A program made the position numbers and the translations under genes. A DNA stretch of 64,000 nucleotides from Aquisphaera giovannonii (GTDB lineage Bacteria; Planctomycetota; Planctomycetia; Isosphaerales; Isosphaeraceae), in NCBI RefSeq assembly GCF_008087625.1, contig NZ_CP042997.1, forward strand, positions 3,720,001 through 3,784,000, read 5' to 3'. The notes beneath the pieces were generated by a model, which saw nothing but the letters and a program-made list of their open reading frames with translations, made no database searches and had not been told where the DNA came from. Numbering within the stretch: position 1 is the first letter of the stretch; every line of letters starts with the position of its first letter. Shown here piece by piece: positions 5,497 to 32,523 of this stretch.

Positions 5497-6498
5497 ATGG
5501 AGACCGGGTCCCGGAGCAGGGTGGCGATCGCGTGCCAGGGCGGCGGCAGCCATACGGCGTTCTCCTCGGGCGTCCTGCAGGAGTTGCTCGGCGACCTGCC
5601 CGGGGACGCGGAGATCGTGGGCATCAGCGGCACCTCCGGGGGCGCCATCTGCGCGGCGATCGCCTGGGACGGCCTGGTGCGGGGCGAGCCGGAAGCGGCG
5701 GCCGTCAAGCTCCGCCGGTTCTGGGGCGAGGTCGCGGCCCGCGACCCGCTGGACAAGCTCCTCAACGAGGCCCTCCTGGCCTCGATCCGCCTCCGCGACC
5801 ACATGGCCTTCCCCGAGGTCAGCCCGTACCTCCTGCCCACCTGGGGCGAGGAGCGCTTCCTCCAGCTGCTCCGCGACCACCTGGACTTCGCCGAGCTCCG
5901 CCGGCTCGCCGGGCGGCCCGGGGCCCCGGCGCTGCACATCGGCGCGGTGGAGATCCTCACCGGGCATTTCGAGGTCTTCGAGGGCCACGAGCTGACGGCG
6001 GAATGCCTGCTCGCCTCGGCGGCGATCCCCCAGCTCTTCCGGGCGGTCCGCATCGAGGGGAAGGGGACGTACTGGGACGGCCTCTTCTCCCAGAACCCTC
6101 CCATCCACGACCTTCCTCATCTCAATATCAACGAGCTGTGGGTGATCCAGATCAACCCCAGCACATGCCCCCGCGTCCCGACGCAGACGCACGAGATCAT
6201 CGACCGGCAGAATGAGCTCTCGGGGAACCTGTCCATGGAGCAGGAGCTCCGGCAGATCGAGATGCTCAACCGCCTGATCGCCCGGCGGGCGATCACCGAC
6301 CCGAGGTTCCACCCGATCGACGTCCGGCGGATCGCCCTCGATCGCGACCTGGACTACTCGACCAAGCTCGACCGCTGGCCGAGCTTCCTGGAGGAGCTGA
6401 GCGAGTACGGCCGGACCAAGGCGCGACGATTCCTGGGCGAGCGACGGGACCGATCCGAGGCCGTCGCCGCGCCCGCCGCGGGCGGGCCGTCGGCCTGA
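5497..6498 (+). CDS. Patatin-like phospholipase family protein
   Basis: Predicted serine acyl hydrolase acting on lipids. The patatin features occur in order: the oxyanion-hole glycines in ACQGGGSHTAF (Gly15-17), the nucleophile elbow G-T-S-G-G with Ser47, and the second catalytic residue in YWDGLFS (Asp194), forming the Ser-Asp dyad. The protein is 333 aa, normal for the bacterial soluble family, and has no signal peptide, so it is probably cytoplasmic. The start at 5497 was chosen because the patatin fold begins within ten residues; the frame stays open further upstream without family similarity. It is convergent with the porin gene, 22 bases away. The substrate cannot be read from sequence. 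Confidence 0.9.
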   Translation: METGSRSRVAIACQGGGSHTAFSSGVLQELLGDLPGDAEIVGISGTSGGAICAAIAWDGLVRGEPEAAAVKLRRFWGEVAARDPLDKLLNEALLASIRLRDHMAFPEVSPYLLPTWGEERFLQLLRDHLDFAELRRLAGRPGAPALHIGAVEILTGHFEVFEGHELTAECLLASAAIPQLFRAVRIEGKGTYWDGLFSQNPPIHDLPHLNINELWVIQINPSTCPRVPTQTHEIIDRQNELSGNLSMEQELRQIEMLNRLIARRAITDPRFHPIDVRRIALDRDLDYSTKLDRWPSFLEELSEYGRTKARRFLGERRDRSEAVAAPAAGGPSA

Positions 6499-16405: not shown

Positions 16406-17920
16406 TCAGCCGTGGCCGTAGCCGCGGTCGAAGGCATCCAGGTCGCGCATGTACGCCTGGAAGGTCGTGCGGAAGGTGTCCGAGTCGACGGCCCATTTCG
16501 GCTGGTCCTCGGTATGCCGGTGGCAGTGTTCCTCGATGAGCCGGTGGAGGAACTTGAACAGGTGCCGGGGCGTCCGCAAGTTGCCCAGGGCGTCCTTCAA
16601 TGAGTCGTCGGAGACCGATTCCTCGACCATCTCCCGGAGTCGCGGGCCCGACGAGGCGTCGTCCGGGTCGATACCCGGGGCGTGGCCGCCGGCCTCGCCG
16701 TTGGCCGACGGGGCGACCGCGCAGGCCTTGAGCCGGTCGCTGGCCAGGTCGTAGAGCGAGGGGCCGGTCCAGCGGAGCGGCTTGATCATGTTCAGCTTGT
16801 CCGGGCGGGCCCGGTCGTAGAACTCCTTATCCTCTTTCTCCAGGTAGTAGGCCAGCTCGATCGGCAGCAGCAGCTTCACGCCGATGCCCGGATGGCGGAG
16901 GAACTTGTTGTCGAGCAGGGGCCAGATCAGCGCCCGCATCTTGCGCGGGTCGCCCTCGATCTGCTGGGGCTCGTCCACCCGGTCGATCAGGACGATGATG
17001 CCGGCGTAGCCGAGGGTGCTCAGCACGCCCTGGAACTTGCGGAGCAGCTCGTACCGCTCCTCGGCCCGGCGGGCCGCCGTGGGCAGCGGCTGGCCGCCGA
17101 GCTCGCCCGGCTTGAACCAGAGCAGCTCCCAGCGCAGGGCCGAGCCGTCCCGGTTGAGGACCTTCAGGCCCTTGCGGATGTCCCGCGCGTACCAGTCGGC
17201 CCGGAGGAGCCGCCAGCCCCAGTAGAGCCAGCCGACGAGGATCGGCACGAGCAGCCAGGGGAGGATGCGGGTCTCCCGGAGCGTCGGGAAGAGGTAGAGC
17301 AGGAGCAGGACGACCAGGGTCGTGCCGAAGCCGATCTGGAGGTCCCTCCGGCTCCAGAGCGGCCGGAAGCCGGAGCGGCGGCGGAGCCGGCTCCATCGCT
17401 TCTCGATCGGCTCGCCCGTGGAGGCGTCGTAGAGGGCCGCCAGGAGCAGCAGGTCTCGCCTCTGGTCGAGGCCCAGCGTGGCCAGGTCGATCTTCTCGCT
17501 CGTCAAGAGGTCCACGAGCTGGGTGACGCCCAGCGAGAGGATCGCGTCCATGTGGTCCTGGAGCTGCCAGCGCTTCAGGACCTCGCCGGTGTCGCCGGCG
17601 CGGACGGCCTGCCGGTAGTGGTCGAGGTAGGGGTTGAAGTCGTCGTAGGAGATGACGAACACCCGCTCGCCGGGGTTCGCCTGGTTGTAGGCCTCGATCT
17701 CGGACATCGCCTGGAGCCGGAGGGCGGTCTTGCCGCTCCCCTTCTCGCCGAAGACGAGCGCCGTGGAGGGGTCCGCCGGACTGCCGAAGAACTTGTTCCA
17801 GGCCGGGTGGTGGATCGTGTCCATGCACCGCCGCTTGAACACCGTATCGGTCTGGGCATCCTCCTCGCTGAACGGGTTGCCCTTGATTCCGTGATGCCTG
17901 AGGAACTGTTCCGTCTTCAT
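16406..17920 (-). CDS. Membrane-associated P-loop ATPase, KAP/AAA-like
   Basis: Predicted NTPase of the STAND/KAP-related kind with an inserted membrane hairpin. Walker A is GEKGSGKTA (Lys64, Thr65), and Walker B is IIVLIDRVDEP (about residues 308-318). Two hydrophobic helices (about 195-214 and 219-239) lie between them, a layout seen in KAP NTPases, whose ATPase core is interrupted by membrane segments. The C-terminal part is helical and contains VDSDTFRTTFQAYMRDLDAFDRG. The start at 17920 (MKTEQFLRHHGIKGNPFSEEDAQ) was chosen because it gives a family-like N-terminus; an in-frame start 46 codons upstream is less likely. The protein is 504 aa. It is divergent from modABC, with no obvious partner gene. 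The role is unknown. Confidence 0.75.
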   Translation of the reverse strand: MKTEQFLRHHGIKGNPFSEEDAQTDTVFKRRCMDTIHHPAWNKFFGSPADPSTALVFGEKGSGKTALRLQAMSEIEAYNQANPGERVFVISYDDFNPYLDHYRQAVRAGDTGEVLKRWQLQDHMDAILSLGVTQLVDLLTSEKIDLATLGLDQRRDLLLLAALYDASTGEPIEKRWSRLRRRSGFRPLWSRRDLQIGFGTTLVVLLLLYLFPTLRETRILPWLLVPILVGWLYWGWRLLRADWYARDIRKGLKVLNRDGSALRWELLWFKPGELGGQPLPTAARRAEERYELLRKFQGVLSTLGYAGIIVLIDRVDEPQQIEGDPRKMRALIWPLLDNKFLRHPGIGVKLLLPIELAYYLEKEDKEFYDRARPDKLNMIKPLRWTGPSLYDLASDRLKACAVAPSANGEAGGHAPGIDPDDASSGPRLREMVEESVSDDSLKDALGNLRTPRHLFKFLHRLIEEHCHRHTEDQPKWAVDSDTFRTTFQAYMRDLDAFDRGYGHG

Positions 17921-18152: not shown

Positions 18153-18986
18153 ATGCGCCCGTTGCGACCTGGCCCGCCGATCTACCTGCTCCTTGGTGCA
18201 GCCCTCGCCGGCTGCTCCGCGCCGGCCACCGACGCCGGCGCGAGAGACGCCACGCCGCTGAGGATCGCCGCCGCCTCCGACCTCCAGCGGGCCCTGCCGA
18301 GGCTCGTCGAGCGGTACCAGGCCGAGTCGGGCGCCTCGGCGTCGATGACGCTGGACGCCTCCGGCCGGCTCGCGGAGCAGATCAAGGCGGGAGCCCCGTA
18401 TGACGTCTTCCTCTCGGCCAACGAGAAATTCGTCCGGGACCTCGAGGAGCAATCTTTCGTCGAGCCCGGGACGGGCAGGCCGTACGCCCGCGGCTCGCTC
18501 GTCCTCTGCGTGCATCCCTCGGCCGCGGCGGCCGTGAAGGGGCTGCGCGACCTGGCAAGGCCCGAGGTCCGGTGGATCGCGATCGCCAACCCGGAGTTTG
18601 CCCCGTACGGCCTCGCGGCGCGACAGGCGTTGGAGGCGATCGGCCTCTGGGGTGCCCTCGGGCCCAAGATCGTCCGCGCGGAGAGCGTCCGCCAGGCGTT
18701 CGTGTACGCCCAGCGGGGGGAGGCGGACGTCGCGCTCGTCAGCCGGTCGCTGATCGGGGCCGATCCGGGCGTGTCGGTCATCGAGGTCGATCCGGCCCTC
18801 TACTCCCCCATGGTCCAGTTCCTCGGCATCGTCGCCGGGTCGAAGCACCGCGACGAGGCGGAGGCCTTCGCCCGGCTCGTCCTCGGCCCCGAGGGGCAGG
18901 CGATCCTCCGGGAGAGCGGCCTCGCGCCCCCGGGCCCCGCCACGCCCCCGCCGGCCCCGGCGACGAAGGCCGAGACGCGTCCATGA
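18153..18986 (+). CDS. modA: Molybdate ABC transporter substrate-binding lipoprotein
   Basis: Periplasmic binding component that captures molybdate or tungstate and hands it to ModB. A signal peptide ends in the lipobox LAGC (Cys21), so it is membrane-tethered. The mature part starts with the family pattern [14 protein letters not shown] and continues with [11 protein letters not shown] and [13 protein letters not shown], all characteristic of the ModA family. The protein is 277 aa. The start at 18153 has GGAGAGG upstream; the frame remains open upstream without similarity. Its stop overlaps the modB start by 4 bases (ATGA), so the three genes form one operon. Confidence 0.93.
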
Positions 18987-19651
18987 TCGACCTGGGGCCG
19001 CTCCGGCTCTCGCTCATGGTCGCGACGGCCGCCACGGGCCTGATCGTCGCGGTCGGACTGCCCGTCGCCCTGCTCCTCGCCCGCGCCCGGTTCCCCTTCA
19101 AGGAGCTCTTGGCCGGCGTGCTCGTCCTGCCGCTCGTGCTGCCCCCCACGGTCCTCGGCTACCTGCTGCTCCTCCTCCTGGGCCGCCGGGGCACGCTCGG
19201 CGGATGGCTGGAGCAGTCGATCGGCGTCGTCCTCGTCTTCCACCGGTCGGGCGCGGTGCTCGCGTCGGCGGTGGCGGCCTTCCCCCTGTTCCTGCTGCCG
19301 GCCCGCGGCGCCTTCGAGGCCGTCGATCCCGCGCTCGAGGACGTCGCCCGGCTCCTCGGCCGGGGCGAGCTCTCGGTCCTCCGGTCGGTCACGCTGCCCC
19401 TGGCCTGGCGGGGGCTGGCCTCCGGGACCATCCTCGCCTTCGCCCGGGCGCTCGGCGATTTCGGGGCCACGATGATGGTCGCCGGCAACATCCCGGGCGA
19501 GACCCAGACCGCCGCGCTGGCCATCTACGACGCCGTCCAGGCGGGCGAGCCGCTCCGCGCGGCCGTGCTCGCGGCCTGCATCTCGACGATCTCGATCGCC
19601 GCGCTCGCCGCCGTCCAGCTCGCCTCGCCGCGGCGGAGGACGTCCCCGTGA
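18983..19651 (+). CDS. modB: Molybdate ABC transporter permease
   Basis: Inner-membrane channel subunit of the molybdate importer, 222 aa, with five or so membrane helices. The EAA-type cytoplasmic loop that docks on ModC is seen as [23 protein letters not shown] followed by the [13 protein letters not shown] block typical of ModB. It starts within the modA stop (ATGA) and ends within the modC start (GTGA), so all three are translationally coupled. Confidence 0.93.
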
Positions 19652-20769
19652 GCGACGACGCCGCGGGCCTGGACGTCCGCCTGGTCCGCCGGCTCCGGGA
19701 CGGCCTCACGGTGGACGTCGCCTTCCGGCTCGGCCCGGAGATCGCCGTGCTGTTCGGCCCGTCGGCCTCCGGCAAGACCTCGATCCTCCGCCTCATCACC
19801 GGCCTGCTCCGCCCGGACGGGGGCCACGTCCGCCTCGGCGGCGAGGCCCTCTTCGACGCGGGCCGGGGCATCGACCTCCCGCTCCGCCGCCGTCGCATCG
19901 GCATGATCTTCCAGGACGACCTGCTCTTCCCGCACCTCCGCGTCGGCGACAACATCGGCTTCGGCCTCGCCGGGAGCGGCTCGCCGGCGAGGCGGGCCAG
20001 GATCGGCGAGGTCGCCGCCCTCTGCGGCGTGGAGCACCTCCTCGACCGCCGCCCCGCGATGCTCTCCGGCGGCGAGCGCCAGCGGGTCGGCCTGGCGAGG
20101 GCCCTCGCGCCCCGGCCCCGGCTCCTGCTCTGCGACGAGCCCGTCTCGGCACTCGACGTCGCCGGCCGGCACGTCCTCCTCGACCGCCTCCGGGCCGTGC
20201 AGCGGAGCGAGGCGATCCCCGTCCTCTACGTCACGCACAGCCCGGCGGAGGCCGTCGGCCTGGGCACCCACCTGATCCTCCTCCGCCGCGGCACGATCGC
20301 CGCCGAGGGCCCGCCCCTGGAGGTCCTGACCGGCGCCGCGGCGGCCCTGGGCCCGATCCAACTGGACGGCGTCCGGAACGCCCTGGCCGCGACCATCGAG
20401 GGCCACGAGGCGCCCCAGGGCTCAACTCGGCTGCGCCTGATGGGCGGCCCCCCGCTGATCGTCCCACACGTCTCCGCCCCCGTGGGTGCCGCCGTCACCG
20501 TGACCGTCCGATCCGACGACATCCTCCTCGCCCGCGGCCCCGTCGCCGGCCTGAGCGCCCAGAACCTCATCCCCGGCACCGTCGAGCGCATCGCCCCCCA
20601 CGGCGCCGAGGCCGAGGTCCTCGTCCGCACCGGCGCCGTCGCCTGGATCGTCAGCATCGTCCTCCCCGTCGTGGAGCAGCTCGGGCTCTCGCCCGGCGTG
20701 GACGTCCACATGATCATCAAGGCACGTAGCTGCCGCGTCGATCACCCCGCCGACGCCGCCGGCGAGTGA
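19648..20769 (+). CDS. modC: Molybdate ABC transporter ATP-binding protein
   Basis: ATPase that powers the molybdate importer, 373 aa. Walker A is GPSASGKTS, the signature is LSGGERQR, Walker B is [12 protein letters not shown], and the switch histidine is in VTHS. The C-terminal third (from about residue 260) is a TOBE/Mop domain that can bind oxyanions and regulate uptake. The GTG start at 19648 overlaps the modB stop by 4 bases. Downstream there is a 101-base gap before the kinase gene on the same strand. Confidence 0.93.
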
Positions 20770-20870: not shown

Positions 20871-22646
20871 GTGCGACCTCTCGTGTGCCATATGCCGCAT
20901 CCCGACGACCAGGTTGAGGCAACGTCGCCCGGCTGGGTGGCCTCCGAGGAGAGCCGGCCCGACAGCTTCGCCGCCCGCCGCCGCATCGCGGAGGCGACGC
21001 CGGAGGAGCGCCGGTGCGAGTCCCGGGACCTGCTCCGGGGGCGGCTCTTCGCCGCCACGCTGGTGATGGCCGTCGGCCTCGCCACCCTCGTGATCCGGGA
21101 CCTCTTCTTCCCGAGGTTCCTCCGCCAGTCCGTCGTCCACGCGGCCACCCTGGCCTGGCTGACCCTGCTCCTGCTGGCGCTCTGGAGCCGCCTGAGGCTG
21201 GACTTCGGCCGGCTGCGCGGCATCGAGGTCCTCGCCTTCGGGTCCGTGGTGGCCTGCCTGGTCGCCAGCCAGTCGCTGGGCTTCCACGGGCACCTGAGCC
21301 GCCAGACGCTCGACGCCGCCGAGCTGCGCGTGCTGTTCAAGGCCAGCATCATCGGCGTCCTGATCCTCATCTTCACCTACACGATCTTCATCCCCAACTC
21401 GGCCCGGCGCGCGGCCGCGTTCATCGTCCCGATGGCCTTCTCGCCCCTCGTCGCCCCGCTGCTGCTGGGCCTCACGGTGCCCGCCTTCCGGCAGGTCTCC
21501 GAGGAGGCCCGCACCCTCGACAAGCTCGTCGAGAATTCCCTCTACCTGCTTCTCGGCGCAGCCACCGCGATCTATGGGGCCTCGGTCATCAACGCCTGCC
21601 GAGGCGACGCCGACGACGCCAGGCGGCTGAGCCAGTACCGGCTCAAGGAGAAGCTCGGCTCCGGCGGCATGGGCGAGGTCTACTACGCCGTCCACCGGCT
21701 GCTCAAGCGCCCCTGCGCCATCAAGCTGATCCGCGAGGACCTCGTGAGGAGGCCCAACATCCTCGCCCGCTTCGAGCTGGAGGTCCGGGCCACGGCCAAG
21801 CTGTCCCACTGGAACACGGTGGAGATCTACGACTACGGCCGCGACGTCGACGGCTCGCTCTTCTACGTGATGGAGTACCTGCCGGGCCTCAGCCTCCAGG
21901 AGCTCGTCCAGCGGCACGGCCCGCTGCCGGCGGCCCGCGTGATCTACCTCATGAGGCAGGCCTGCGACGCCCTCCACGAGGCCCACCGCGCCGGGCTGGT
22001 CCACCGCGACCTCAAGCCCCCCAACATCTTCGCGGCCTACCGGGGCGCCCGATACGACGTCACCAAGCTGCTCGACTTCGGGCTGGTCAAGCCGATCAAG
22101 GGCGGCGATTCGCCCCTGATCACGAAGGAAGGCATGGTCACCGGCTCCCCGCTGTACATGGCCCCGGAGCAGGTCTCCAGGTCGGCCCCCATCGACGGCC
22201 GGACCGACCTCTATGCCCTCGGCGCCGTGGCCTATTTCTGCCTGACGGGCCAGCCCCCGTTCGTGGATTCGAACTCCATGGCCGTGATGATCGCCCAGGT
22301 CAGGGATCCCGCGAAGCCGCCGTCCGAGATTCGCCAGGGCATCCCGGCCGACCTCGAGGAGGTCGTGCTCCGCTGCCTCGAGAAGGAGCCCGACGCCCGC
22401 TACCAGGACGCGGACAGCCTGGGGCGGGCCCTCGAGGCCTGCCGCGACGCCCGCGGCTGGTCTCCCGAGGACGCCGAGGCCTGGTGGCTCGCCAACCAGC
22501 CGCTCGAGGACCCCGAACGGCCCTCCGCCCCCCACGCCCCGAGCCCCGGCGTGCCGACCGAGGAGCTGACCCGCGCCGAGGCCTCCGGCGTGACCCTCCA
22601 GGCGGCCGCCGTCGAGGATCGGGCCTCGCCGGAGCGACGCGGATGA
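20871..22646 (+). CDS. Membrane Ser/Thr protein kinase with N-terminal multi-pass region
   Basis: Predicted Hanks-type kinase. The N-terminal part (about residues 50-245) holds about six hydrophobic segments. The kinase domain follows (about 258-530) with the glycine loop GSGGMGEV (263-270), the lysine in CAIKLI, HRDLKPPN with catalytic Asp380, DFG with Asp402, and APEQ. Usually planctomycete kinases place the kinase domain first and the membrane helix after it, so this order, with a six-helix-like membrane domain first, is less common and could be a sensor. The C-terminal tail is Pro/Ala/Glu-rich. The GTG start at 20871 has no good ribosome site; ATG at 20892 is an alternative. The stop overlaps the next start by 4 bases. 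The protein is 591 aa. Confidence 0.9.
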   Translation: MRPLVCHMPHPDDQVEATSPGWVASEESRPDSFAARRRIAEATPEERRCESRDLLRGRLFAATLVMAVGLATLVIRDLFFPRFLRQSVVHAATLAWLTLLLLALWSRLRLDFGRLRGIEVLAFGSVVACLVASQSLGFHGHLSRQTLDAAELRVLFKASIIGVLILIFTYTIFIPNSARRAAAFIVPMAFSPLVAPLLLGLTVPAFRQVSEEARTLDKLVENSLYLLLGAATAIYGASVINACRGDADDARRLSQYRLKEKLGSGGMGEVYYAVHRLLKRPCAIKLIREDLVRRPNILARFELEVRATAKLSHWNTVEIYDYGRDVDGSLFYVMEYLPGLSLQELVQRHGPLPAARVIYLMRQACDALHEAHRAGLVHRDLKPPNIFAAYRGARYDVTKLLDFGLVKPIKGGDSPLITKEGMVTGSPLYMAPEQVSRSAPIDGRTDLYALGAVAYFCLTGQPPFVDSNSMAVMIAQVRDPAKPPSEIRQGIPADLEEVVLRCLEKEPDARYQDADSLGRALEACRDARGWSPEDAEAWWLANQPLEDPERPSAPHAPSPGVPTEELTRAEASGVTLQAAAVEDRASPERRG

Positions 22647-23773
22647 ACGCCGAGACCGAGATGAAGGCCGGCCCGGAGGCGGACTGGATCGACGCGCCCC
22701 AGGCGGTCGTGGTGCACTTCGCCTTCGCCCTGGACATAGGCGACGAGATCGACCTGGACGCGGCGCGGAACCTCCTCCAGGGCGAGCCCGGCGTCCTGCC
22801 CCGCCGCAGGCGGACCCCGGGCTCGATCGGGTATCGCCCCGCCCCGATCCGCGTCCCGGTGGACCCCGACGGCATCCGGCTCCCCGGCGCGATCTCGCCC
22901 GCGAGGGAGCCCTCGGCCGACCTCTCGCTCTTCGACTTCGGCGCCATCTCCCTGGCCGTGCGCTTCCCGCTCATCATCACTCCCCGGGCGCTGCGCGACC
23001 TGGCCGGGGACCTCGCCGACCCCGCGGAGCTGAACGACGCGGCCCGCCGGCGGCTGGCGCCCTGGATCGATCGACTGAGGCCGGCGGTGTACGACTTCGC
23101 GCCCAGCGAGCTGTCCGAGGAGTACATCGTCTTCCAGCTCGCGGAGGCCCGGTCCAACTGGCTCTCGTCCCGCGCCGGGTGGATCGCCGGCCTCGTCCGG
23201 CTGGAGTCGGAGCCGCTCAGCCTGGGCGAGGTCGCCGAGGCGACCCGGCTGGCGATCTCGTACACGCCGGACGACCTCGTCCTTCTGGATTGGGCGGCCG
23301 GCTTCATCGCCGACGCCGACTGCGAGGACACGCTCCGGGTCATCGAGTTCGCCAACGTCCAGCTCCTGGAATTCCGCCACATCGACGACCGCCTGGACGA
23401 CCGGCTGGAGGCCGCCTACAAGCTCATCCGCCCGGAACGGCGGCGGGGGCGCTGGCTGAGCGCCTGGAAGGGCCACGAGCAGGCCGTCCGCCACATCCGG
23501 GAGCTGGAGATCGAGGCGGCCAGCCTCTTCGAGCGGGTGGACAACGCCCTCAAGCTCGTCGGCGACCACTACCTCTCGCGGGTCTTCGAGCTGGCCTCCA
23601 GCCGCTTCCACCTCCGCGGCTGGCAGCAGTCCATCCGCCGCAAGCTGGAGACCGTCGGCGACGTCTACGACCTCCTCATCCAGCAGGCCGGCGGCCACCG
23701 CATGGAGGCCCTCGAGATCACCGTCGTCATCCTCATCGCCCTGGAGATCCTCCTGGCCCTCTGGCGACACTGA
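22643..23773 (+). CDS. DUF155/RMND1-like membrane-tail protein
   Basis: Member of the RMND1/Sif2-Sif3/Mrx10 (DUF155) type by its overall plan: an N-terminal alpha/beta part, a long helical region, and a C-terminal single hydrophobic anchor, here RMEALEITVVILIALEILLALWRH-like (about residues 351-375), preceded by RKLETVGDVYDLL. In mitochondria RMND1 supports translation; bacterial function is not established. The FAFALDIGDEIDL and FDFGAISLAVRFPL segments fit the N-terminal strands of that family. It begins inside the stop codon of the kinase gene (ATGA), so the two are translationally coupled, which suggests a joint role at the membrane. The protein is 376 aa. Confidence 0.7.
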   Translation: MNAETEMKAGPEADWIDAPQAVVVHFAFALDIGDEIDLDAARNLLQGEPGVLPRRRRTPGSIGYRPAPIRVPVDPDGIRLPGAISPAREPSADLSLFDFGAISLAVRFPLIITPRALRDLAGDLADPAELNDAARRRLAPWIDRLRPAVYDFAPSELSEEYIVFQLAEARSNWLSSRAGWIAGLVRLESEPLSLGEVAEATRLAISYTPDDLVLLDWAAGFIADADCEDTLRVIEFANVQLLEFRHIDDRLDDRLEAAYKLIRPERRRGRWLSAWKGHEQAVRHIRELEIEAASLFERVDNALKLVGDHYLSRVFELASSRFHLRGWQQSIRRKLETVGDVYDLLIQQAGGHRMEALEITVVILIALEILLALWRH

Positions 23774-25325: not shown

Positions 25326-26744
25326 TCAATGCCCGAACCCGCCGGCTTCCGGCGCGGGCCCGCCCTCGGCGGCGATCCGGTCCATGTCCTCGGGGAGGTA
25401 GCGGGAGCCGATCAGGAAGAGGATGCCGCCCAGGATCAGGACCGGGCCGACGGCGAGCATGGCGACCGTCAGGTTCGTCATCAGCCCGTTCTCGTCCGGC
25501 TTCGGCCCCGCGCCGATGGACTCCAGGAACGTGCCCAGGGGGGACGTCATGATGGCGTCGGAGCCGAAGAGGTCGGAGATCCAGCCCAGGAGGATGGGCG
25601 AGCCGATGTCGCCTAGGACGTGGATCAGGAAGATGAACAGGGCGTAGCCGGCCGCCCGCTGGTTGGCCGGGACGACGTTGGCCGTGACCGTATTCGACGG
25701 GCCCAGGACCATCGCCATCAGGATCGAGGCGAAGAAGAGGAAGGCGAGCGCCGGGGTCCGTTGGGGCTCGAGGATGCCCAGGATTCCCAGGGGGACGGAG
25801 GCCAGCACCGTCAGCGCCGGCAGGAGCATGTAGGCCCGCCGCGTCCGCTTGCGGAGGAGGTCCGTCACGAAGGTGCTCAGGGCGATGCCGATCAGGCCGG
25901 CCAGCGCCAGCAGGATGCCGATCCACAGATTGGCATCGGCGAGGCTCATGCCGCGGACGCGCTGGTAGAACGTGGAGCCCCAGGCCGCATACGCGCCGGT
26001 CGCGAAGGTAGCGGCGGCCATGCCGAGCGTGTTGTAGACGAAGGTCTTCGTCTTGAAGAGGTTCAGGTAGTCGCCCATCCTGGGCCGGTCGGCCTTCGGG
26101 GAGAAGGACTTGCCCTCGGACGCGCCCCGGCCCGGGTCCAGGATCGTCAGCCCGGCGAAGGCCGCGACGAGGCCCGGCAGGCCGACGACGTAGAAGACGT
26201 GCCGCCAGCCCCAGTGGGTGGCCACGTAGCCGGCGACCATGAACCCGAGCGCCGTGCCGATCGGCAGGGCCAGGTAGTAGATGCCCATGGCCCGGCCGCG
26301 TTTCGAGACCGGGAAGAGGTCCGCGATGAGCGCCGGGGCGATGACGCCGTAGCTCGCCTCGCCGACGCCGAGCAGGGCCCGCCAGAAGAACATGTGGCTC
26401 ACGTCGGTGGAGAACGCGGTGCCGACCGTCGCGACGCTCCAGATCCCGACCCCGGTCGCCAGCAGGACCCGGCGGTTGTACCGATCTCCGAGCCAGCCCA
26501 TGATCGGCGAGATGATCGTGTAGACGATCATGAACGAGCCGCCGAGGTAGCCGTACCAGGAGTCGTCGATCTTCAGGTCGCGCTTGACCTGCGTCGCCAC
26601 GGCGAAGAACGAATAGCGATCGATGTAGTTCAGCAGGTTCATCGAGAACAGGATCGCCAGCGCGAAGCCCGCCCCGCCGAGGGTCGGCAGGAACGTCCTT
26701 CTCGGGAGTGACTCGCTGGGGACTTCCGCGGGAGATCGATGCAT
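25326..26744 (-). CDS. MFS transporter, spinster-like
   Basis: Predicted 12-helix secondary transporter, 472 aa. The N-terminal helix carries NLLNYIDRYSFF, and motif A between helices 2 and 3 reads GWLGDRYNRRVLL. GVGEASYGVIAP and the FPVSKRGRAMGIYY loop are the usual pattern of the Spns/spinster branch, whose bacterial members have unknown or varied substrates. The start at 26744 has GAGG about 10 bases ahead. It is transcribed away from the secretin-like gene and its neighbours give no hint of substrate. Confidence 0.85.
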   Translation of the reverse strand: MHRSPAEVPSESLPRRTFLPTLGGAGFALAILFSMNLLNYIDRYSFFAVATQVKRDLKIDDSWYGYLGGSFMIVYTIISPIMGWLGDRYNRRVLLATGVGIWSVATVGTAFSTDVSHMFFWRALLGVGEASYGVIAPALIADLFPVSKRGRAMGIYYLALPIGTALGFMVAGYVATHWGWRHVFYVVGLPGLVAAFAGLTILDPGRGASEGKSFSPKADRPRMGDYLNLFKTKTFVYNTLGMAAATFATGAYAAWGSTFYQRVRGMSLADANLWIGILLALAGLIGIALSTFVTDLLRKRTRRAYMLLPALTVLASVPLGILGILEPQRTPALAFLFFASILMAMVLGPSNTVTANVVPANQRAAGYALFIFLIHVLGDIGSPILLGWISDLFGSDAIMTSPLGTFLESIGAGPKPDENGLMTNLTVAMLAVGPVLILGGILFLIGSRYLPEDMDRIAAEGGPAPEAGGFGH

Positions 26745-28511: not shown

Positions 28512-30368
28512 CTAGCAGGAGACCGGATTTCCCTCAAGTCCAATGGCCCGGGAGCCGACACGTCCGTCTGACGCGGCGTCCGGGCCGGATCGCCGCGACT
28601 CGCCGGCCCGCCCCATGCAGCGGTCGAAGGCCAGGAGCGTCAGCAACAGGACCACGGCGGCGAAGAGGTAGACGACCAGCAGGCAGGCGAGGGAGAGGCC
28701 CCAGAGCAGGTGCCGGTCGCGGATCCAGGATCGGTCCAGGAGTTCCAGCGGAGCGACCTGGCCCCCGAAGGGGCTCAGGGCCCCCAGCGGCAACTCCAAG
28801 GCCGCGCTCGCGTCGCGGAAATCGGAGGCGACCCGGCCATTCCACCACCAGACGAGCAGACGGACGCCGATCTCCGCGACGACGACCCAGCCGATCGAGA
28901 ACAGGAGGAAGGCCGACACGCTGGCCGCCACCGCGCGGCTGGTCCTGCGGAGCCAGGTCGCGAACGCGAGGCCCAGGCTGGTCACCGCCGCCGCATGGCC
29001 GAGCAGGAAGGCCGAGGGCAGGATGGCGGCGAGGACCTTCTCGTAGGTCTCGAGGGGGATCGGCTCGCCCAGGCGATAGGCCTGGGTCGGCTCCAGGGCC
29101 GTCGCGGCCACGAACAGCCCGGCCAGGGACGGGAAGACGAGCAGCGGGAGGGATCGTCGGAAGACGGCCAGCCACTTCCCGAGGACGACCTCCCGCGTGG
29201 TCAGCGTGGTGCTCAGGAGGATGTCCAGGCTCCCCCGGACCCGTTCCTCCGACAGCGACGTCGGCGCCGAGGCGCTCAGGAGGAGCAACCCGAGCATGGC
29301 GGCGATCAGGTTGGTCCCCGAGACGAACCTCGATTGGGCCCCGGTCCCGAGCCAGATCATCTCGTACAGGCCGATCCCCATGCCCACGGTCATGACGATC
29401 GCGAAGAGGGCGCCGACGCCCCGCGCGATCCGCGTGGGCCGGCTCCGGCGCCACTCCCGCCAGAGCACCGGGTTGCCGTCCAGCGAGGGAGACGGCCACC
29501 ACGAGGCGAGGTTCGCCCGTATCCAGGCCCCGGCCGCCTCGAGCCGGGCCGATCGGCCCCGGAGCGGAGCCGGCTCGCGACGCAGCCCGGCGATCGCAAA
29601 CGCGACGCAGGCCGCAGTGACCAGCAGACAGACGGCCGCGAAGACGCCCAGGTCGGACCAGCCCGCATACCCGGGGCTCGCGTACGGGGAATACACCAGC
29701 ACGAACGGATTCAGCTTGATGAACCAGGCGGCGGGGCCATTCCGTTGGAAGACCCGGGCGAGCGCCTCCCAGGTCGGAGCGGCCAGGAGCCATGCCGCCC
29801 AGGCCCCGAAGACGGCCATCAGGACCTCGTGGCTCCTGGTGGCGCGGGCCGAGACGGCCATCGAGAAGGAGCTGCCCCCGAGGAGGACCAGCATCGTCAC
29901 CGCGGCGAGCATTCCCAGGGCCTCCGGGATGATCCCGCCCAGCAGCATCGCCAGGAGGAACACCGGCACGCCCGTCAGCACGAGGCCCGCCGCCGAGAGG
30001 AACCGCGAGGCCAGCTTTCCCAGCACGATCTCCGCGTCCGAGAGCTCCGTGACGAAGGCGTGCGTCAGCCAGCCCCCGGCCCGGTCCGCGCAGATCGACC
30101 CGGCCGACGCCGCCGGCGCGACGAGCAGGGCCAGGCCGAGCTGGATCCCCGCGGCCCCGCAGTAGAAGTATTCCGCGACCTCGGCCAGCGTCTGCCTCAC
30201 GTCCACGCGTGGGCGGAGATCGCCGACTCCGACCGCGTCCCAGGCGAACGCCAGCGAGGCGAGCAGCCCTGACACCAGCAGTGCCCGCAGCGCATAGGCC
30301 TGCCATCGCCGCGACGCCGCGATCGTCTCGTAAAGGAACACCGGGCTGAACGCGGGCAGTCGAGGCAT
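28512..30368 (-). CDS. ABC-2-type permease-like protein, paralog B
   Basis: Multi-pass membrane protein of 618 aa with at least ten hydrophobic segments. It contains two copies of the ABC-2 permease signature, LSDAEIVLGKLASR in the N-half and RGSLDILLSTTLTTREVVLGKW in the C-half. It thus looks like a fused pair of permease halves. The neighbouring upstream gene is a clear paralog with near-identical N-termini (VFLYE-IAASRRWQAYALRALLV). No ATPase gene is visible nearby, so the ATP-binding partner, if any, is encoded elsewhere. The start at 30368 has GGAG about 10 bases ahead. The substrate is unknown. Confidence 0.8.
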   Translation of the reverse strand: MPRLPAFSPVFLYETIAASRRWQAYALRALLVSGLLASLAFAWDAVGVGDLRPRVDVRQTLAEVAEYFYCGAAGIQLGLALLVAPAASAGSICADRAGGWLTHAFVTELSDAEIVLGKLASRFLSAAGLVLTGVPVFLLAMLLGGIIPEALGMLAAVTMLVLLGGSSFSMAVSARATRSHEVLMAVFGAWAAWLLAAPTWEALARVFQRNGPAAWFIKLNPFVLVYSPYASPGYAGWSDLGVFAAVCLLVTAACVAFAIAGLRREPAPLRGRSARLEAAGAWIRANLASWWPSPSLDGNPVLWREWRRSRPTRIARGVGALFAIVMTVGMGIGLYEMIWLGTGAQSRFVSGTNLIAAMLGLLLLSASAPTSLSEERVRGSLDILLSTTLTTREVVLGKWLAVFRRSLPLLVFPSLAGLFVAATALEPTQAYRLGEPIPLETYEKVLAAILPSAFLLGHAAAVTSLGLAFATWLRRTSRAVAASVSAFLLFSIGWVVVAEIGVRLLVWWWNGRVASDFRDASAALELPLGALSPFGGQVAPLELLDRSWIRDRHLLWGLSLACLLVVYLFAAVVLLLTLLAFDRCMGRAGESRRSGPDAASDGRVGSRAIGLEGNPVSC

Positions 30369-30467: not shown

Positions 30468-32369
30468 TCATGGCTCCGAGGCCCTCGCACGCGTCGCGCG
30501 GCGTGGCGGCCGCGGCAGGGAGAGGGGCCTCTGCTCGTTCATCCGCCCCATGCACCGGTTGAACGTCAGGAGGGTCAGCCCGAGCAGCGCCGCGGCGAAG
30601 AGGAGGATCACCGACAGCGTCCCGAGCATGCAGAGCCAGTAAGCCTCACGGCCCGGATCCGAGGGCGCATCGTAGCCGTAGGACGCGATGCCCCTGTCGA
30701 ACACATTGCCGGTCAGGACGCGATACGGCGCCATCTGGCCGCCCAGCGGGCCGAGCGCCGCGGCCGACCGGGAGAGGATCCGCAGCGCCCCCCCGTCGTC
30801 ATAGGAGTAGACGCTCAGCAACCAGGCCAGGGCTGTGGGGAGGGCGGCCTGGCCGAAGAGTTCCCATCCGGCGGAGAACAGGACGACGGTCGTGACGCAG
30901 GCGGCCACCGCGCGGCCCGTGCGGCGAATCCAGGTCGCCGAAAGGACGCCGACGCTGGTGATCGCCGCGGCATGGGCGATCAGGAACGTGGAAGGAAGGA
31001 CGGCCGCGAGGCATCGATCGCGGATGGTGACCTGGGTCTCCCCGGCGGAGCCATAGTAGAAGTAGCTCATGGAAGGCCGGGCCGGCGCGGTGAACGCGAT
31101 GAAGCCCCCGGCCGCGGCGGTGAAGAGCAGGAAGGGGAACGAGCGGGCGAAGGCCGCCCGCCACTTCCCCATGACGATCTCGCGCGTGCTCAGCGGCGTG
31201 CCCATGAGCAGGTCGAGGCTGCCCCGCAGGCGTTCCTCTGCCAGCGAGGTCGGGGCCGAGGCGCCGAGCAGCAGGAGCCCGAGGAGCGCCGCCAGGACGC
31301 TCACCCACTCGATGAACGGGTTCGACGTGCCCTCGAACCAGCCGTTCCCCAGCCAGGCCATCTCATAGAGGCCGACGCCCATCGAGACGGCCAAGAGCAG
31401 GGCGAACAGGGCGAAGATGGCCCGGGCGTACCACGCGGGCCGGTTGATCCGCCATTCGCGCCACAAGACCGGATTGTCGTCGAGGCTCGGCGCCGGCCAC
31501 CAGGAGCCGAGTCGAGCCCTGGCCCGGTCCAGGGCGGCGTCGATGCGACGCGAGAGCGACGGCGAACGGCCCGCGTCGCCGCGCAAGGAACGGACGGTGA
31601 ACAGCACGGCCGCCGCCGAGATGCCGAGGCAGGCCGCCGCGAAGATCGCCAGGTCGGCACCGATGGGGGCCCACGCGGGCGAGTACGCAGCGTAGACGAG
31701 GAAGAAGGGATTGAGCCGATCCAGCCATTCGGGCGGGAGCGGGTAGCCGATCAGCTCGGCGATCGGCCGCCAGATCGTCGGCCCGAAGATCCACACGGCC
31801 CAGGAGCCGAAGACGACCAGGAGGACCTCGTGGCTCTTGGTCGCCCGGGACGAGACCGCCATGGAGAGCGAGCAGCCGAGGAGCAGCACCAGCAGGGTCA
31901 CGGCCGCGAGGACGAAGAGGGCCTCGGGCACGATCCCCCCGAGCAGAGAGACCAGCAGGAAGACGGGGAGGCCGGTCAGCACGAGGCCCGCCGCCGACAG
32001 GTAGCGAGAGGCCAGCTTGCCGAGCACGATCTCCGCGTCCGACAGGTCGGTCACGAAGGCGTGCGTCAGCCAGCCCCGGGCCCGATCCACGCAGATCGAC
32101 CCGGCCGACGCCGCCGGCGCGACCAGCAAGGCCAGCGCGACCAGGATGCCGGCCGCCCCCTTGTAGAACGCCACGCCGACCTCGGCCAGCACGCGGGTCA
32201 GGTCGCCGACGTGGATCGTGTCGTCCGCCCCCGCCGAGAACCAGGCGAGCCAGAGCGACTGGAGCAGCCCCGCCACCAGCAGGGCCCGCAGCGCATAGGC
32301 CTGCCACCGCCGCGAGGCCGCGATCGACTCGTACAGGAACACCGGGCCGGGCGCGAGGAGTCGGGGCAT
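30468..32369 (-). CDS. ABC-2-type permease-like protein, paralog A
   Basis: Upstream paralog of the preceding gene, 633 aa, same topology with two ABC-2 signatures: LSDAEIVLGKLASR and RGSLDLLMGTPLSTREIVMGKW. The ATP-free permease pair may form a heterodimer. The start at 32369 (MPRLLAPGPVFLYE) has AGGTGGA about 8 bases ahead and aligns with the start of the paralog; an in-frame Met nine codons upstream is the alternative. The genes are separated by 99 bases and are likely one transcript. They are divergent from the secreted protein gene at 32524. Confidence 0.8.
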   Translation of the reverse strand: MPRLLAPGPVFLYESIAASRRWQAYALRALLVAGLLQSLWLAWFSAGADDTIHVGDLTRVLAEVGVAFYKGAAGILVALALLVAPAASAGSICVDRARGWLTHAFVTDLSDAEIVLGKLASRYLSAAGLVLTGLPVFLLVSLLGGIVPEALFVLAAVTLLVLLLGCSLSMAVSSRATKSHEVLLVVFGSWAVWIFGPTIWRPIAELIGYPLPPEWLDRLNPFFLVYAAYSPAWAPIGADLAIFAAACLGISAAAVLFTVRSLRGDAGRSPSLSRRIDAALDRARARLGSWWPAPSLDDNPVLWREWRINRPAWYARAIFALFALLLAVSMGVGLYEMAWLGNGWFEGTSNPFIEWVSVLAALLGLLLLGASAPTSLAEERLRGSLDLLMGTPLSTREIVMGKWRAAFARSFPFLLFTAAAGGFIAFTAPARPSMSYFYYGSAGETQVTIRDRCLAAVLPSTFLIAHAAAITSVGVLSATWIRRTGRAVAACVTTVVLFSAGWELFGQAALPTALAWLLSVYSYDDGGALRILSRSAAALGPLGGQMAPYRVLTGNVFDRGIASYGYDAPSDPGREAYWLCMLGTLSVILLFAAALLGLTLLTFNRCMGRMNEQRPLSLPRPPRRATRARASEP

Positions 32370-32523
32370 CGGCGCGTCCACCTGACCGTTCCGCATTCGA
32401 CAAAAGTCGTGGGAGCGGACGCCAGTGTAGCGGAGCCGTCGAGGTTTCGCCAACGATCCGGGATCGTTACGATCGAGCCCTGTCGGTCGGGGCTGGTTGG
32501 CCGCTTGGACAGGAGTCAGCAGG

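Follow-up and report, generated by a model that had tools for sequence, protein, structure and literature searches.

Conserved but separable pairing of a membrane-sensor Ser/Thr kinase gene with a gene for an anchored protein whose tail is remotely related to RMND1, beside modABC in Isosphaeraceae

In the stretch of Aquisphaera giovannonii DNA analyzed here (64,000 nucleotides, referred to as the window), the gene of a membrane-bound Ser/Thr kinase (P0001) is followed by the gene of a protein (P0002) that is anchored in the membrane and belongs to a planctomycete family without a name; the two are a conserved but separable operon pair and thus candidates for a possible, not obligatory, signalling partnership. 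This description is based on direct observations of how the genes are arranged and conserved, of the kinase motifs, of the relationship of the tail and of the modABC linkage. With middling confidence, the job of P0002 is considered to be independent of the kinase, which would provide an optional regulation of the membrane locus with P0002 as one plausible substrate.

20871..22646, + strand: Hanks-type Ser/Thr kinase P0001 (PF00069, E 1e-42; HRDLKPPN and DFG)
21039..21596, + strand: six-helix N-terminal membrane region of P0001 (residues 57-242, hydropathy)
21636..22406, + strand: kinase catalytic domain of P0001 (PF00069)

The kinase reading frame and the multi-pass membrane region ahead of its kinase domain, both proposed in the first-pass annotation, were borne out by the PF00069 search and the hydropathy profile: The match to PF00069 spans residues 256-512 (E 1e-42; 146.5 bits versus a gathering cut-off of 31.7), and six hydrophobic segments are located at residues 57-242, all before the kinase domain and none behind it. 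According to the sequence, the gene starts with GTG at 20871, an ATG at 20892 being equally good. The glycine-rich loop GSGGMGEV and the motifs HRDLKPPN and DFGL are intact, which assigns P0001 to the Hanks-type kinases; the catalytic motifs are likewise intact in 22 of 22 kinases at the locus. P0001 is not the PASTA kinase PknB (NF033483, 268.6 bits versus an equivalog cut-off of 450). With its N-terminal region as query, five copies were found in the window's genome, i.e. in at least four other kinases, and about 80 kinases with this type of membrane region are present in 37 of 45 Isosphaeraceae genomes. The earlier description of its domain arrangement as the reverse of the usual order therefore holds in comparison with the PknB plan but not within this genome, where the arrangement is ordinary. 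Judged from their sequences, the six-helix membrane-sensor kinases appear to be a locally expanded family in the Isosphaeraceae, and P0001 adds a new member to a kinase type already known. Among planctomycete Ser/Thr kinases in general, 70-80% have been reported to be membrane-bound, mostly by one helix and in some cases by up to 18, many of them with C-terminal WD40 or TPR repeats (PMC11032199).

22631..22634, + strand: GGAG, possible Shine-Dalgarno sequence of P0002, 8 nt before its ATG (sequence)
22643..22646, + strand: ATGA, start of P0002 overlapping the stop of P0001 (sequence)
22643..23773, + strand: P0002, 376-residue membrane-anchored protein of an unnamed planctomycete family

The overlap of the kinase stop codon TGA with the ATG of the next gene was confirmed by reading the sequence (ATGA, 22643-22646). 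The same 4-bp overlap is found in Aquisphaera insulae (L001, 5992-5995; the kinase match ends at 5992, the position of the ATG), where it was missed by the gene caller and read by hand, and by automatic start choice also in G003; the called gap in the other kinase-P0002 pairs is 6-220 bp, start codons and gap lengths of the relatives being approximate, as they were obtained with a home-made codon-usage caller. At the G010 locus (L102, 7307-8143, minus strand), the P0002 relative has a 4-bp overlap with a YaeI-like phosphodiesterase gene in place of the kinase.

The kinase gene is positioned directly upstream of P0002 and on the same strand in 14 of the 26 Isosphaeraceae genomes with P0002, these 14 representing six genera, and the junction is uninterrupted in all of them; the adjacency is therefore no single-strain feature. 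Regarding the complete set of 45 genomes, both genes are present together in 14, P0002 without an adjacent kinase in 12, the kinase only in 7 and neither in 11 (Fisher p = 0.37, relatedness uncorrected; G018, whose contig ends inside the kinase, was left out of the counts). The 38 loci of P0002 relatives sampled outside the Isosphaeraceae contained no kinase within two genes, and no Ser/Thr columns separated the P0002 proteins with a kinase neighbor from those without. In the kinase tree (final version without row L054, which was in the wrong frame), 16 of the kinases from the locus group together with support (100/98), those accompanied by P0002 being interspersed with those lacking it; in consequence, P0002 has been lost or gained several times, and the P0002 tree requires three changes of kinase adjacency. 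The g20 and G003 kinases are placed on a backbone of low support (31/84), a single origin not being rejected (p-AU 0.39); some of the locus kinases, namely these two, may not be orthologous.

These data bear on two opposing views of the pair. On the one hand, the kinase might respond to a signal from the membrane or envelope and phosphorylate P0002 directly as its main output: Such a dedicated pair would be in line with the ATGA overlap in the window, in A. insulae and (by automatic start) in G003, with the lack of inserted genes at the junction in the 14 genomes and with the predicted cytoplasmic domains of both membrane proteins; however, the 7 genomes with kinase but without P0002, the 12 in the converse situation, the lack of Ser/Thr residues conserved exclusively in the kinase-bearing lineages and the fact that in G010 an ATGA overlap joins a P0002 relative to an unrelated phosphoesterase gene instead of a kinase render it doubtful. 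On the other hand, the genes might be unrelated neighbors held together by slow rearrangement, since a kinase neighbor is unremarkable in a genome with about 149 PF00069 matches and the co-occurrence is not significant; this view is hardly more convincing, as the kinase-P0002 junction holds in six genera while the order of the genes farther out is not kept beyond the genus. The independent losses would fit mere neighbors as well as the favored view of an optional kinase input. The suggestion of a new signalling pair, with which the analysis began, is therefore upheld with respect to the recurrent adjacency and weakened by the separate losses, by the absence of kinases from the 38 outside loci and by the missing kinase-specific Ser/Thr positions.

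16406..17920, - strand: P-loop ATPase, divergent from modA, conserved flank (weak NCBIfam matches)
18153..18986, + strand: modA, molybdate-binding protein (TIGR01256, E 2e-48, 165.4 bits; cut-off 62.5)
18983..19651, + strand: modB, molybdate permease (TIGR02141, E 1e-64, 218 bits; cut-off 182.6)
19648..20769, + strand: modC, molybdate transporter ATPase with TOBE domain (TIGR02142, ABC_tran, TOBE)
25326..26744, - strand: convergent MFS transporter gene that delimits the block downstream in several genera (MFS_1, E 1e-52)

The pair is preceded by modABC in the window and in most Isosphaeraceae loci of P0002 or the kinase, both with and without the latter (the TIGR02142 score of ModC, 274.2 bits, is slightly below the cut-off of 285.05, modC being the best among 164 families). 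This molybdate-transporter surrounding, the broader setting of the pair, was absent from the first-pass annotation. P0002 directly follows modC without a kinase in G037, G038, G006, G007, G004 and G009 (distances of 15-117 bp, based on automatic starts), so that at least six of the 12 genomes with P0002 but without adjacent kinase show this arrangement; conversely, the kinase follows modC without P0002 in G020, G021, G022, G028 and G029. P0002 could therefore serve the molybdate transporter, i.e. the stability, assembly or regulation of ModBC, with the kinase as an incidental or secondary insertion: The direct succession of modC and P0002 in the six genomes and the persistence of the mod link across lineages with and without kinase speak for this possibility, but no mod gene was recognized beside P0002 relatives outside the Isosphaeraceae (in a comparison with the window proteins), and within this family some P0002 relatives are located elsewhere, e.g. 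behind miaA or a phosphoesterase gene; it is regarded as unlikely. Part of the support for the favored view of P0002 as an independent protein with an optional kinase input is that the kinase-P0002 junction is never interrupted (14 of 26 genomes, six genera), whereas in several genomes BlaI/M56 or other genes have been inserted between modC and the kinase. The genes at the outer edge of the block (24665, 27084 and 28512) are not kept beyond the genus; the conserved block is thus not simply a result of general synteny.

Several further features of the surroundings were recorded. A gene for a BlaI-type repressor and one for an M56 (BlaR1-like) peptidase separate modC from the kinase or immediately precede the latter in L091 (5678-8772), L093 (5106-8260), L095, L098 and L116; in L091, the M56 peptidase gene is fused to a DUF1559 part. 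The P-loop ATPase at 16406-17920 (DS41_1_antiphage, E 5e-26, and Sll1717 family, E 1e-13, both below cut-off) is found next to the mod genes or next to the kinase in the majority of the Isosphaeraceae loci sampled, with 63-96% identity, and looks better conserved than modA. The adjacent minus-strand genes at 28512-30368 and 30468-32396 encode proteins with a nearly identical N-terminus (FLYE[TS]IAASRRWQAYALRALLV), which points to a probable tandem duplication of membrane proteins.

23570..23770, + strand: RMD1/RMND1-like tail of P0002 (coiled coil and anchor, residues 310-376; hhalign 95.9%, E 5e-9)
23708..23764, + strand: C-terminal membrane anchor of P0002 (residues 356-374, hydropathy)

The second open reading frame of the pair and its predicted C-terminal anchor were likewise recovered as annotated, the anchor as one strong hydrophobic segment at residues 356-374. 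P0002 had no match in Pfam at E values up to 10 and none in NCBIfam; its family is present in 26 of 45 Isosphaeraceae genomes and in 82 of 392 sampled Planctomycetota genomes, the latter being about one fifth, and is named by none of the profile libraries used. Positions kept throughout the phylum include E159, Y161, E188, D211, W217, L241, R245, K304, G307, D308, R313, W327 and E358, and a basic stretch at residues 54-70 (RRxRTPxSxxYRPxPxR) is invariant among the Isosphaeraceae. According to an AlphaFold model calculated from nine sequences (pLDDT 68.7), a well predicted alpha/beta part (approximately residues 20-160) would be followed by long helices. P0002 belongs to an old planctomycete family; in the topology predicted from these features, its alpha/beta domain is cytoplasmic and is connected by a helical stalk to the anchor at the C-terminus. 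A sequence search of the solved structures gave no match, and a Foldseek search with the model yielded nothing at E of 0.001 or less, TBP just missing this threshold. The VIA-align comparison of the modest-confidence model resulted in Z values of 10.6 to the CorA of Campylobacter jejuni and of 9.9 to TBP, such values being reached by helical bundles by chance. That P0002 might be a pore-less CorA/Mrs2 relative, with the alpha/beta domain, the long stalk and a single remaining membrane helix, would be compatible with the former Z value; it is highly improbable in view of the similar value for TBP, the hhalign probability of 0.2%, the missing GMN motif and the confidence of the model. A relationship to CorA at the profile level was also rejected on account of this hhalign result, the lack of GMN and the end of the protein after one membrane helix.

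The earlier assignment of P0002 to the “DUF155 plan” had to be abandoned in the strict sense: PF02582 (DUF155) did not match P0002 at E values up to 10 and matched no protein of the window's genome, whereas true RMD1 proteins score 108-133 bits with this model; the NCBIfam search gave no DUF155 match either. A resemblance to RMD1 is restricted to the C-terminal 67 residues and is detectable by profile only. Genuine DUF155 proteins are represented once among 294 Planctomycetota genomes; this protein, three annotated plasmid proteins of the RMD1 family and one unannotated Novosphingobium relative served as references (n=5). A profile of 24 close P0002 relatives matched all five references in the C-terminal region of about 65 residues (14.6-25.6 bits). 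Since a single RMD1 sequence against this narrow alignment gave only 67%, a wider P0002 alignment was built (61 sequences used), which against the five references reached 95.9% (E 5e-9, 67 columns); the controls remained at 0.2% (reversed profile), at most 0.9% (30 column shuffles) and 0.2% (CorA, likewise a protein with a stalk and a membrane helix). The DUF155 core gave no more than 3% with the P0002 family when the tail was removed, and the middle region was also without signal. In the reference protein of 258 residues, PF02582 extends only to residue 209, so that the greater part of the matched tail is not covered by the Pfam domain. By these profile comparisons, the P0002 tail is remotely related to the RMD1/RMND1 family, i.e. 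to the superfamily in the wider sense, and P0002 is best described as a variant with an anchored RMD1 tail and without a detectable DUF155 core. A divergent P0002 branch of about 346 residues (L186, L187, L189 and L191), two members of which touch the DUF155 core model at E 0.018-0.1, could be a bridge to the true DUF155 proteins. An RMD1-family gene is also present on a viral (IMG/VR) contig (L198, 1318-2259), where it is adjoined by a terminase-like gene on the opposite strand; the single-sequence AlphaFold model of a viral-contig RMD1 protein had a pLDDT of 47.6, too low for a fold comparison.

RMND1 has been proposed to tether mitochondrial ribosomes close to where RNA matures (PMC7564844), and the DUF155 proteins of plants are located in mitochondria (PMC4588890); by analogy, through the common tail, P0002 might have an RMND1-like role in translation or ribosome tethering. 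None of the paper titles listed concerned a bacterial role of DUF155/RMD1 proteins, and no bacterial kinase-RMD1 pair is described in the literature searched (outside subscription papers and preprints). According to the favored explanation, P0002 would most likely serve as a scaffold or adaptor tethered to the membrane, a role that is assumed for RMND1 and borrowed from it by way of the tail. Its basic function would need no kinase, because P0002 occurs without one in 12 Isosphaeraceae genomes and in all 38 outside loci. In the Isosphaeraceae, P0002 would have joined the modABC neighborhood, in which a six-helix membrane-sensor kinase is also encoded; where both are kept, the genes would share a transcript and be either translationally coupled or separated by short distances, and the two proteins would sit in one membrane with their domains on the cytoplasmic side. 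The kinase would probably modulate the membrane locus with P0002 as a plausible substrate, although a direct phosphorylation of P0002, as judged from the sequence data, is possible at best.

Direct control of a bacterial RMND1 relative at the membrane, exerted by a membrane-sensor Ser/Thr kinase beside a molybdate transporter, is, taken as a whole, improbable; if true, it would be the first known signalling input for any protein with a tail of the RMND1 type and would make the function of this class dissectable in bacteria. The tail provides a remote link to RMND1, a human disease protein of unsettled biochemistry, and the occurrence of P0002 with and without an adjacent kinase near modABC offers a natural comparison for its function and for the relevance of phosphorylation. 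If the link is merely positional, the locus still cautions against taking overlapping stop and start codons and a common anchor by themselves as proof of a signalling pair.

In comparison with known systems, P0001 resembles the PknB/PASTA kinases (NF033483) in its kinase domain but, unlike them, lacks a membrane helix at the C-terminus and any match outside the kinase domain, its membrane region preceding the latter. With the planctomycete Hanks-type kinases (PF00069) it shares the intact catalytic motifs and the membrane-bound state, whereas its six helices before the kinase domain distinguish it from the majority of the planctomycete membrane kinases with their single helix. The low-to-middling confidence model of P0002 loosely resembles CorA/Mrs2; in contrast to these, P0002 has no sequence relation, no GMN motif and a single membrane helix. 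Like RMD1/RMND1 (PF02582), P0002 has a C-terminal coiled coil and a single anchor after a soluble N-terminal part; in contrast to the bacterial RMD1 proteins used (approximately 260-320 residues), it comprises 376 residues with an invariant motif set of its own, and the DUF155 core is not alignable.
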